Source: Microbacterium aurugineum
GTDB taxonomy: Bacteria; Actinomycetota; Actinomycetes; Actinomycetales; Microbacteriaceae
Assembly: GCF_023101205.1 (NCBI RefSeq)
Contig: NZ_CP078078.1
Location: forward strand, 1,860,001 to 1,924,000
Reading direction: 5' to 3'
Length of the DNA: 64,000 nucleotides
Shown here: positions 1 through 49,774 of the stretch, piece by piece
How the letters are laid out: each line of letters begins with the position of its first letter
Numbering within the stretch: position 1 is the first letter of the stretch
Program-made: the position numbers and the translations under genes
The notes under the pieces: generated by a model
The model's input: only the letters and a program-made list of their open reading frames with translations
Told to the model about the DNA's origin: nothing
Database searches by the model: none

Positions 1-468
1 CGTGAGTCGTCGCTCCGGATCGGCCTCCGCACTGTCCGCCAAGTGCTCCACGGCCTCGAGGAGCGTGCGCACGCGGGAGTTCGAGACGCGTGTGCGTCCA
101 CCGCCCGTCCGGCCCGCGATCTCCAGCGCCTCCACCGCTTGCGCGGAGAGCCGATACACCTCGACGTCGTCATCGATCTGCTGGACCAGCCAGCCCAGGC
201 GCACCCAGTTCCTCGAGACATCGCGTCCGGTCCCCGCCGGTGTCCGTCGCTCATCGTCATCGTCGTCCGCGCCCCTCAGCTCCTCGAGGATCTCGGAGAG
301 CTCGGCATGGGCATCCGCGATCGGGATCGACGGCCGGTCAGCCGTGAACAGCAGAGAAAGCGAGGCGACGACGAAGGGAGCGTACCGACCGTGGAGCAGA
401 TCGAGGGTCGGAGTGCGGAAGGCGGTGACAGCGCGGGAGTATGCCGATTCCGCTCGTGTTCCTGTCAC
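1..468 (-). CDS. jetA: DUF3375 protein, JetA/MksF subunit of a Wadjet-type system (N-terminal part)
   Basis: The first 156 codons of a gene that runs off the left edge of the window. Translating the minus strand from GTG at 468 gives a protein with the layout of DUF3375: an early segment of the form FRTPTLDLLHGRYAPF, a basic tryptophan region RNWVRLGWLVQ, then VYRLSAQAVEAL, and the closing SNSRVRTLLEAVEHLA...DPERRL. DUF3375 proteins are the kleisin-like JetA/MksF subunit of the SMC-type Wadjet (JetABCD, MksBEFG) complexes that restrict plasmids by cleaving small circular DNA. JetA is usually the first gene, so jetB, jetC and jetD would lie beyond the window. The start is inferred: there is no Shine-Dalgarno sequence, but a TAATGT -10 box ends 6 bases upstream, which fits a leaderless mRNA. 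Family assignment is from recalled family pattern and was not searched. Confidence 0.75.
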   Translation of the reverse strand, partial: MTGTRAESAYSRAVTAFRTPTLDLLHGRYAPFVVASLSLLFTADRPSIPIADAHAELSEILEELRGADDDDDERRTPAGTGRDVSRNWVRLGWLVQQIDDDVEVYRLSAQAVEALEIAGRTGGGRTRVSNSRVRTLLEAVEHLADSAEADPERRLT

Positions 469-474
469 ACATTC

Positions 475-480
475 ACATTA
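475..480 (-). promoter_or_regulatory. -10 box of the jetA-like gene
   Basis: TAATGT on the minus strand, 6 bases before the GTG at 468. The spacing would place the transcript start at or next to the start codon. No convincing -35 hexamer is visible. Confidence 0.45.
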
Positions 481-590: not shown

Positions 591-598
591 TGATCTTG

Positions 599-670
599 CT
601 GGGGTACCTGGACTCGAACCAAGAATAACGGAACCAGAAACCGTCGTGTTGCCAATTACACCATACCCCA
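599..670 (-). tRNA. tRNA-Gln (CTG anticodon)
   Basis: The minus strand folds as a cloverleaf of 72 bases. The acceptor arm TGGGGTA pairs with TACCCCA, the D arm is GTGT...ACAC, the anticodon loop is TTCTGGT with anticodon CTG, and the T arm carries GGTTCGAGTCC. The leading U-G acceptor end is typical of bacterial glutamine tRNAs. CCA is not encoded. It lies upstream of gltX in the opposite sense of use: it is transcribed separately from its own promoter. Confidence 0.93.
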
Positions 671-769: not shown

Positions 770-2275
770 TCAGCTCGCGAGGAACGTGGAGAGCGACCGC
801 AGGCGACGCAAGGACTCCTCTTTGCCCAGCAGCTCCATCGACTCGAACAGCGGTGGCGAGACCCGGCGGCCGGTGATGGCCACCCGCGGCGGGCCGTAGG
901 CGATGCGCGGCTTGAGCTCGAGCTTCTCGACGAGCTCGGCGGCGAGGGCCTCCTGGATCTTCTCCGGCGTGAAATCCGTCACCGGTTCGAGCGCGGTGAC
1001 GCAGGCGTCGAGAACCTCGGCCGCATTCGCCGGAAGGCCCTTGAGCGCGTCCTCGGCATACGAGACCTCATCCGTGAAGAGGAAGCCGACCATCCCCGGC
1101 ACCTCACCCAGCAGCTGCACACGTTCCTGCACGAGGGGCGCGACGCGGAACGCCATCACCAGTTGCTCATGCGTGGGCTCATCGAACAGACCCGCGGCGG
1201 CGAGGTACGGCACGGTCCGCTCGGCGAAGTCCTTCTCCCCCAGCATCCGGATGTGATCGCCGTTGATCGACTCGGCTTTCTTCTGATCGAAGCGCGCCGG
1301 GTTGGGGTTCACGTCGGTGATGTCGAACGCGGCGGTGAACTCATCGAGCGAGAAGACGTCGCGGTCGGGACCGATCGACCAGCCGAGCAGAGCCAGATAG
1401 TTGAGCAGCCCCTCGGGGATGAACCCGCGCTCCCGGTGCAGGAACAGGTCCGCCTGCGGGTCGCGCTTGGAGAGCTTCTTGTTGCCGGTCTCCCCCAGCA
1501 CCAGCGGCATGTGGGCGAAGCGCGGCACGAAGGTCGTCACACCTGCATCGATCAGTGCCGCGTACAGCGAGAGCTGGCGCGCGGTCGAGGGCATGAGGTC
1601 TTCGCCACGCAGCACGTGGGTGATGCCCATCAGCGCATCGTCGACCGGGTTCACGAACGTGTACAGCGGCACGCCGTTCGGACGCACCACCACGAAGTCG
1701 GGGAACGAACCGGCGGGGAAGGTGACCTCACCGCGGATCAGGTCGACGTACGTGAGGTCCTCATCCGGAACACGCAGGCGGAGAGCGGGCTGACGGCCCT
1801 CGGCACGGAACGCCTCCTTCTGCGCATCGGTGAGGTCGCGGTCGAAGTTGTCGTAGCCGAGCTGCTTGGCGCGACCGGCGGCCTCGTTGCGCGCATCGAT
1901 CTCCTCCGCCGTGGAGTAGCTCTCGTAGAGGGCTCCGGTGGCGATGAGCTTGTCGATCACCTCACGATAGATGTCGTGACGCTCCGACTGCCGGTAGGGC
2001 GCATGCGGACCGCCGACCTCGACGCCCTCATCCCAGTCGATCTTGAGCCAGGTCAGCGCGTCCACCAGCTGGCGGAAGCTCTCCTCGCTGTCACGCGCGG
2101 CGTCAGTGTCCTCGATGCGGAACACCATCTTCCCGCCGTTGTGACGGGCATAGGCCCAGTTGTAGAGAGCCGTGCGGACCATGCCGACATGCGGCAGACC
2201 GGTCGGCGAGGGGCAGAAGCGGACGCGGACGTCGGCACCACTGACAGTCGTGGTGAGAGGATGAGGGGTAGCCAT
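770..2275 (-). CDS. gltX: Glutamate--tRNA ligase
   Basis: Charges tRNA-Glu with glutamate in the cytoplasm. The protein has 501 residues, normal for bacterial GluRS. The class I signature appears as PTGLPHVG (residues 24-31, the HIGH motif) and KLSKR (267-271, the KMSKS motif), with the family hallmark FRIEDTDA near residue 52. In Actinobacteria this enzyme usually also misacylates tRNA-Gln for GatCAB amidation, so the neighbouring tRNA-Gln is a functional partner by inference. The ATG at 2275 directly precedes the conserved N-terminus. A TAGAAT box at 2285-2290 ends 9 bases upstream and there is no clear Shine-Dalgarno, so the leader is very short. Confidence 0.97.
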
Positions 2276-44751: not shown

Positions 44752-44827
44752 TGGTGCACCCCCTGGGACTTGAACCCAGAACCCACTGATTAAGAGTCAG
44801 TTGCTCTGCCGATTGAGCTAGAGGTGC
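44752..44827 (-). tRNA. tRNA-Lys (CTT anticodon)
   Basis: A 76-base cloverleaf on the minus strand. The acceptor arm GCACCTC pairs with GGGGTGC, the D arm has AGCTCAATCGGCAGAGC, the anticodon arm is ACTGACTCTTAATCAGT with anticodon CTT, and the T arm is CTGGGTTCAAGTCCCAG. A is the discriminator and CCA is encoded. Confidence 0.95.
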
Positions 44828-49404: not shown

Positions 49405-49774
49405 TGGTGGAGCTGGGGGGAATCGAACCCCCGTCCAACGCTGAGTCTCCACGCCTTCTCCGGGCGCAGTCTGTGAAGACGTTCTGCTCGGCTCCGACCT
49501 TTGTCACAGACACCTAAGTCGACGAGCCCAGCCTGGGAAGAGTCCCACGTGACGTCCAGACGCCATCACGCAGCAAGATTCCTAGATGACGCCAGGATCC
49601 GTATCGGAATCACATACGGCCTGACGGACTATCGGGCTCGCTTATGCAGCGAGGGCGAAGTCGTTGCGCTTGGTTTCGGCAACTATTTTTTTGCAGAGAG
49701 CGTTTACGAGATAACTCTGCATCCTCGGCCCGCTTCTCGTGGATTCACAGGCGCTGTCGAAACCGATCAGCCCC
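49405..49774 (-). ncRNA. ssrA: Transfer-messenger RNA (tmRNA)
   Basis: Rescues stalled ribosomes and tags their products for proteolysis. The 370-base RNA has the tRNA-like ends: 5' GGGGCTGATCGGTTTCGACAG and 3' GGGGGTTCGATTCCCCCCAG followed by CTCC and an encoded ACCA, with GGGGCTG pairing to CAGCTCC. The tag reading frame runs from 49680 to 49642, just after ATAGTT, and encodes AETKRNDFALAA before TAA, with the ALAA degron. Pseudoknot regions lie on both sides. The 5' end is taken as the first paired base. A strong terminator follows. Confidence 0.95.

Follow-up and report, generated by a model that had tools for sequence, protein, structure and literature searches.

Wadjet type I systems are composed of JetA, JetB, JetC and JetD, and correspond to MksBEFG of Corynebacterium glutamicum and EptABCD of Mycobacterium smegmatis. 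According to the accessible parts of the reports on the characterised Wadjet, JetABC extrudes DNA and then activates JetD (PMC12647877; PMC10586767), which is the nuclease of the system (PMC10586767). All four genes have been reported from Brevibacterium (PMC6579920), and the sections available on C. glutamicum treat MksBEFG together with MksG (PMC10123090; PMC7083940). Relatives without the nuclease are also described. MksBEF of Pseudomonas aeruginosa, which has no JetD, is stated to organise the chromosome (PMC10586767), and Smc5/6, an SMC complex with KITE subunits, to silence extrachromosomal viral DNA (PMC10586767; for the KITE subunits also PMC10512200). Among the actinobacteria, Paenarthrobacter lasiusi S21 has a locus listed as 'Wadjet' with JetA, JetB and JetC only (PMC11719660, Table 6) and a second, complete Wadjet type I (PMC11719660). 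According to the accessible text of that paper, defence requires the full set of four genes; the missing JetD of S21 is left undiscussed there (PMC11719660). One JetD-less actinobacterial locus has already been published, as an entry in a table (PMC11719660). In the literature searched, with most subscription papers outside its scope, no account of a conserved JetD-less actinobacterial lineage was found.

The stretch of DNA analysed here (the window) comprises 64,000 nucleotides of Microbacterium aurugineum, G000:C1:1860001-1924000, in a genome (G000) of one contig of 3,626,995 bases that is rated 100% complete. At the left edge of the window, an open frame on the minus strand starts from a GTG at position 468 and runs off the edge at position 1, giving the first 156 codons of jetA (mksF, the DUF3375 kleisin; 1..468). 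The initial annotation had taken this frame for the N-terminus of a DUF3375 protein, JetA, and a Pfam search of the 156 residues bore this out, with an E-value of 2e-34 and 119.7 bits (cut-off 28.6). The match, which is far above chance, places jetA residues 16-155 on profile positions 3-140, and the same part of the gene matched PADLOC JetA1 at E 2.1e-64. The full jetA, of 487 aa, extends on the minus strand to G000:C1:1859005 and matched DUF3375 with 362.9 bits (E 3.5e-108) and PADLOC JetA1 at E 2.5e-211. That jetA would be the first operon gene, followed by jetB (DUF4194) and jetC (SMC), also proved correct in the adjoining genome sequence. The jetB gene (G000:C1:1858350-1859048, minus strand; 232 aa as the frame reads) matched DUF4194 with 129.4 bits and PADLOC JetB1 at E 2.7e-113. 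The jetC gene (G000:C1:1854982-1858383, minus strand; 1,133 aa as the frame reads) carries AAA_29 and SbcC Walker B domains, matched PADLOC JetC1 with 1681.8 bits over 1,117 positions, and encodes a Walker A, a signature and a Walker B motif. The three genes abut on one strand in the order jetA-jetB-jetC, and the real starts of jetB and jetC may lie slightly downstream of the frame starts. JetC is 100% identical in Microbacterium sp. CBA3102 and 94% identical in M. paraoxydans.

On the 3' side of jetC stand genes for a 164-aa putative membrane protein, which starts 9 bases past jetC and was read as such from a sequence with no family match, a topoisomerase IB and an M1 aminopeptidase (pepN). 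Just outside the window, at L002:11972-11982, jetC runs almost straight into the 164-aa membrane protein gene, and likewise in M. paraoxydans; an MFS gene separates the two in G002, G077, G127 and G040. Further into the window, a tRNA-Lys (44752-44827) and a tmRNA with the tag AETKRNDFALAA (49405-49774) were noted, both on the minus strand.

The fourth gene is absent. A profile search for JetD (DUF3322 and the JetD_C Toprim nuclease) found none in the operon. Over the whole genome, JetD_C gave a single match under the cut-off (10.5 bits, E 0.547) and DUF3322 gave zero matches; one control genome scored above cut-off in each of these Pfam searches, and C. glutamicum was among the controls that matched. 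The initial annotation had expected a complete Wadjet/MksBEFG operon with jetD as its fourth gene. This part of it fell, as no Toprim-type gene follows jetC and no jetD was detected in the genome; with jetD absent, the cleavage of small circular DNA does not follow for this operon. The operon is a JetD-less variant of Wadjet type I, and not a complete plasmid-cleaving system.

The same state was found across the genus. JetC matched at E 1e-20 in 69 of 149 Microbacterium genomes, and a JetC of the window's type (at least 60% identity, fragments included) was present in 58 of the 149 by table count. JetD_C occurred in 19 of the 149, in a search where C. glutamicum was the control above cut-off, and stood beside a window-type jetC in two of them, G101 and G042, as judged by comparison of coordinates. 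Loci were obtained, in full or in part, for 55 of the 58 genomes (G044, G055 and G103 left out), and their downstream sides were scanned with a JetD profile built from Microbacterium's own JetDs. In a JetC tree of 71 rows, drawn without L107, L114, L120 and L128, the window's clade held 53 rows, and 51 of these were without JetD, counting L101, whose sequence stops about 0.8 kb past jetC and cannot be judged. The genus profile was also run over 30 whole genomes. JetD was recovered in G101 and G042, the positive controls, and a 36-residue relic in G106; the remaining 27, the window genome included, gave nothing. The absence of JetD is not a matter of one broken copy peculiar to the window genome.

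A wider scan took the best 80 of 134 related stretches, from Microbacterium, Leucobacter, Gulosibacter, a Herbiconiux MAG, Tessaracoccus, Corynebacterium, Actinomadura, Actinoplanes, Nocardia, Lentzea and others. Within the family Microbacteriaceae, JetC matched at E 1e-100 in 57 of 398 genomes, and JetD was adjacent to jetC in seven (G250, G289, G487, G319, G269, G322 and G346; coordinates compared). Rows at least 92% identical were collapsed, from 186 to 121 overall and from 117 to 61 in the clade of the window (clade 1). Broken, truncated or fragmentary loci (L106, L107, L114, L120, L128, L170, L171 and L179) were dropped before the counts, as was L121, where a second, truncated jetC had been picked; counts of 61 given below are collapsed, and counts of 109 and 147 include some genomes from two collections. 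The 121-row JetC tree was made by a quick method and carries long-branch warnings. Clade 1, from Microbacterium, other Microbacteriaceae, Tessaracoccus and Corynebacterium, has 56 of 61 rows without JetD and five with it, or four of 61 if an intact JetD is asked for, since L145 (M. helvum) was scored as JetD-bearing with its JetD in two pieces. The sister clade (Actinomadura, Actinoplanes, Nocardia, Lentzea, Microbispora and others) carries JetD in 18 of 22 rows and lacks it in four. A more distant clade 2, at 34-39% identity to the window's JetC, comprises 27 rows, of which 21 are without JetD, five with it and one undecided.

These distributions were compared with the history of the nuclease itself. 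Placing the JetD label on the 121-row JetC tree needs 12 changes, 10 of them forced by well-supported branches. The main clades of the JetC tree reappear in a tree of 44 JetD proteins: clade-1 JetDs group with sister-clade JetDs (support 100/99), without forming a resolved group of their own there, and the JetDs of clade 2 group together (support 98/98). Because the two trees agree in this way, JetD seems to be ancestral, to have accompanied JetC and to have disappeared on repeated occasions. The relics fit this picture. In G052, about 115 residues of a JetD N-terminus remain beside a truncated JetC, and in M. helvum JetD is in two pieces. A search of 147 JetD-less downstream stretches (up to 6 kb each, three of them shorter than 1.5 kb) with JetD-only queries recovered residual JetD only at two G052 loci and in M. 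helvum. Partial 'JetD' remnants reported by tblastn were mostly artefacts, with query frames overlapping the end of jetC in another frame, and were rejected. G101, which has JetD, and its sister G068, which lacks it, are homologous from just before jetA to about 46 bases past the jetC stop, and these limits define the shared unit as jetABC.

Some individual loci deserve a separate record. L107 and L128 of G052 are both degraded jet operons with JetD relics, and the two differ from each other. L106 of G042 inverts the usual pattern, with an intact JetD and a JetC broken across two frames; this genome also carries, on another contig, a second jet operon that includes JetD. In clade 2, L209-L228 and L246-L248 form a second, distant JetD-less jetABC lineage; they come from several genomes in each of the Microbacteriaceae genera g18, g32, g51, g64 and g79. 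Over the 27 clade-2 loci, none of the 22 largest flanking families listed extends beyond a single genus, which suggests vertical inheritance; this JetD-less jetABC is possibly inherited vertically with a host function.

The genes that remain are intact in the window's lineage. Walker A, signature and Walker B motifs are complete in 109 of 109 JetD-less clade-1 JetC proteins, JetA, JetB and JetC are near full length at 107 of these 109 loci, and JetC proteins without a JetD occur at identities as low as about 60%. In 12 pairs, Ka/Ks was 0.044-0.099 for jetA, 0.015-0.140 for jetB and 0.053-0.122 for jetC. Where measurable, the flanks gave 0.021-0.040 (gltX), 0.045-0.082 (topo IB) and 0.090-0.115 (pepN), so that the jet genes fall within the range of topo IB and pepN and above gltX. 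Judged by sequence, jetABC is functional and under strong purifying selection. The cassette also appears to have a promoter of its own. A putative -10 element, TAATGT (TANNNT class), lies on the minus strand at window positions 475..480, 6 nt before the jetA GTG start. TANNNT occurs within 16 nt upstream of the jetA start in 52 of 61 clade-1 loci (47 of the 56 JetD-less ones), ending 6-9 bases before the start codon, and in 0-3 of 61 loci in each of 17 control windows further upstream. Leaderless promoters are common in actinobacteria, and we read the element as a putative leaderless-type promoter belonging to the cassette.

The cassette lies directly 3' of a tRNA-Gln (anticodon CTG; window 598-670, minus strand), which is on the same strand as jetA, with its 3' end towards jetA and about 130 bases from the jetA start. 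Beyond it, gltX (770..2275, minus strand; named glutamyl-tRNA synthetase by reading of the sequence) is common to relatives with and without the cassette. Four relatives (G029, G022, G021 and G001) have the same tRNA-Gln locus with no jetABC, in the order gltX, tRNA-Gln, 0.9-3.7 kb of other sequence, an MFS gene and topo IB; the 164-aa membrane protein was matched at this locus in one of the four. In G029 (L260, ~10.1-11.1 kb), fragments between tRNA-Gln and the MFS gene were read as a tyrosine recombinase. Microbacterium seems to have an integration site at the tRNA-Gln next to gltX, and the initial suggestion that it serves as a landing site gains support from the four jetABC-free relatives and the integrase-like fragments in one of them. 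No repeat of 14 bases of the tRNA was found elsewhere in 11 clade-1 loci scanned, and there is no room for an integrase of the cassette's own in the ~130 bases between tRNA-Gln and jetA or between the abutting jet genes.

Over the whole of clade 1, the sites are diverse. By shared flanks, the 61 loci fall into 33 site clusters; JetD, counted as flank, joins four JetD-bearing loci, and the sites are if anything more than 33. A tRNA (Gln, Ser, Thr, Met or Ala) stands less than 350 bp upstream of the jetA frame in 8 of 61 loci, always on the same strand; at four clade-2 loci checked, nearby tRNAs are mostly on the opposite strand. Some candidates were tried and set aside. A plasmid-borne origin was rejected: of 72,556 plasmid records, one (from Mycolicibacterium fortuitum) gave a match, partial and at 35%. 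Topo IB was rejected as a substitute fourth component, being present in 11 of 12 tested genomes without jetABC and, in four jetABC-free genomes, in the same place after gltX and tRNA-Gln. A conserved neighbour as a new partner was also discarded, since none of the 22 largest flanking families listed for the 27 clade-2 loci spans genera.

The sequences support three intact genes, no JetD, a deeply conserved JetD-less state, repeated JetD loss and a self-contained cassette at many sites. The explanation that we tentatively place first, at somewhat under an even chance, is that an intact Wadjet type I motor has lost JetD and is kept under selection, most likely for a non-cleaving action on extrachromosomal circular DNA. 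Put more specifically, the disarmed motor could be an immune (or selfish) module, widespread in actinobacteria, that neutralises circular extrachromosomal DNA uncut, possibly through a new effector on the conserved JetB tail; this narrower form is held with less confidence. The JetA kleisin, the JetB KITE and the JetC SMC ATPase would form the motor of a lineage that lost the JetD nuclease. As in the characterised Wadjet, JetABC without JetD would presumably still load on DNA and extrude loops using ATP. It may then compact, silence or mis-segregate extrachromosomal circular DNA instead of cutting it, in a mode that would resemble the silencing of episomes by eukaryotic Smc5/6 without a nuclease. 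An accessory cassette scattered over many sites resembles a defence module, so that extrachromosomal circular DNA most likely remains its target; the patchiness and many sites of clade 1 favour such non-cleaving action over a chromosomal role, with an effector in trans as the third option. Several points count against this explanation. The flanking families of clade 2, confined to single genera, point to a stable role in the host more than to mobile defence; the retained JetB tail fits a substitute effector or a role within the complex at least as well; the sole JetD-less relative with a known role, MksBEF of P. aeruginosa, organises the chromosome; and a few members of clade 1 still have an intact JetD.

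An accessory chromosomal condensin is the strongest of the rivals, though on balance unlikely. In this case, JetABC would have been recruited after JetD loss to work beside Smc-ScpAB, in parallel to MksBEF of P. aeruginosa. The flanking genes shared within genera in clade 2 and the chromosomal location, seen in the near absence of matches among the plasmid records, speak for such a role. The patchy presence of the cassette, in little more than a third of the Microbacterium genomes, its many different sites and its tRNA-adjacent location speak against it. ScpA, which marks Smc-ScpAB, was found in 24 of 24 chosen genomes; JetABC is therefore not the only condensin, and the presence of ScpA anyway weakens this rival too.

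Somewhat less likely still is that another effector, encoded elsewhere, has taken the former place of JetD on the JetB tail, which is conserved and disordered. In the characterised Wadjet, an IFDR motif at the JetB N-terminus is described as contacting JetD (PMC10586767). The N-terminal tail of the window's JetB reads FIxPVxMExDxxExFxGDxGxL. A loose FIxPVxME is kept in 54 of 56 JetD-less and 5 of 5 JetD-bearing clade-1 rows (58 of 60 in a pooled clade-1 tally), as well as in all 22 sister rows, of which 18 bear JetD and four lack it (23 of 23 in a pooled tally), and the rest of the tail around it is freely variable. Eight tail residues (F28, M34, E35, D37, F42, G44, D45 and G47) are invariant in 24 JetBs, in a stretch where the AlphaFold block-mean pLDDT is 31-44. 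JetB gave a weak AlphaFold model (mean pLDDT 58.9, with residues 1-50 mostly unfolded), which was used solely for the lack of predicted fold in the tail. The long retention of FIxPVxME without JetD suggests some other partner or a role inside the complex. The motif is missing, however, in 25 of 25 clade-2 rows, where FxGDxGxL alone is kept; four of these rows bear JetD, so that FIxPVxME is not a general JetD-docking motif. Among the neighbours, none of the 22 largest flanking families listed for clade 2 spans genera, and topo IB, common in genomes without jetABC, is not linked to it; in 27 of 30 genomes, moreover, the genus profile detected nothing JetD-like at any other place.

The two remaining explanations are far weaker. 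A decaying Wadjet, with recent JetD loss and the remainder on its way out, would agree with the JetD N-terminal part beside a truncated JetC in G052, the two-piece JetD of M. helvum and the split JetC of G042, but is strongly disfavoured by the three intact genes and low Ka/Ks of the window's lineage and by JetD-less JetC proteins that diverge to about 60% identity with every ATPase motif complete. A complete Wadjet with its JetD elsewhere or too divergent to detect has a precedent of sorts in the family genomes G282, G244, G384, G310 and G473, which have a window-type jetC and JetD at another place (coordinates compared), but is largely refuted by Pfam and genus-profile searches in which the controls matched, while the window genome gave nothing above cut-off and the genus profile nothing in 27 of its 30 genomes.

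Work on Wadjet has cast JetABC as sensor and motor and JetD as executor, and the question is whether the motor has any use on its own. The loci described here provide a large natural bacterial set in which the nuclease was dropped repeatedly and the motor kept, with JetD-bearing sister copies for comparison (G101 beside G068). The set makes it testable whether plasmid restriction by an SMC motor can do without cleavage, and how a defence SMC turns into a chromosome condensin. If the favoured explanation is true, non-cleaving JetABC would be a bacterial counterpart of episome silencing by Smc5/6. The set also calls for caution in annotation, as a nuclease-less, JetABC-only locus has been listed simply as Wadjet in the table available (PMC11719660).

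Among known systems, the operon of the window is closest to Wadjet type I, with which it shares the jetA-jetB-jetC order, the DUF3375 kleisin, the DUF4194 KITE and an SMC of 1,133 aa with full ATPase motifs, and its sister clade bears JetD; it differs in having no JetD in the window genome or in 56 of 61 non-redundant clade-1 loci. The JetABC-only locus of P. lasiusi S21, set alongside by its table entry, is alike in being an actinobacterial JetABC without JetD. MukBEF has the SMC, kleisin and KITE architecture in common at a distance, but the MukB N-terminal profile stays under its cut-off on the window operon (20.3 against 23 bits). With eukaryotic Smc5/6, the proposed likeness would be an analogy in mode of action, the subunit make-up being different. 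MksBEF of P. aeruginosa, as far as it is described in the accessible text, resembles the operon as a three-subunit SMC-kleisin-KITE complex without JetD beside Smc-ScpAB. The JetB of the window, however, matches DUF4194 (129.4 bits) far better than the MksE family PF21980 (37.5 bits, cut-off 27), and its JetD was lost inside an actinomycete Wadjet-I clade. On these two grounds, judged by family profiles and trees, the loss of JetD was probably independent of that in P. aeruginosa MksBEF.
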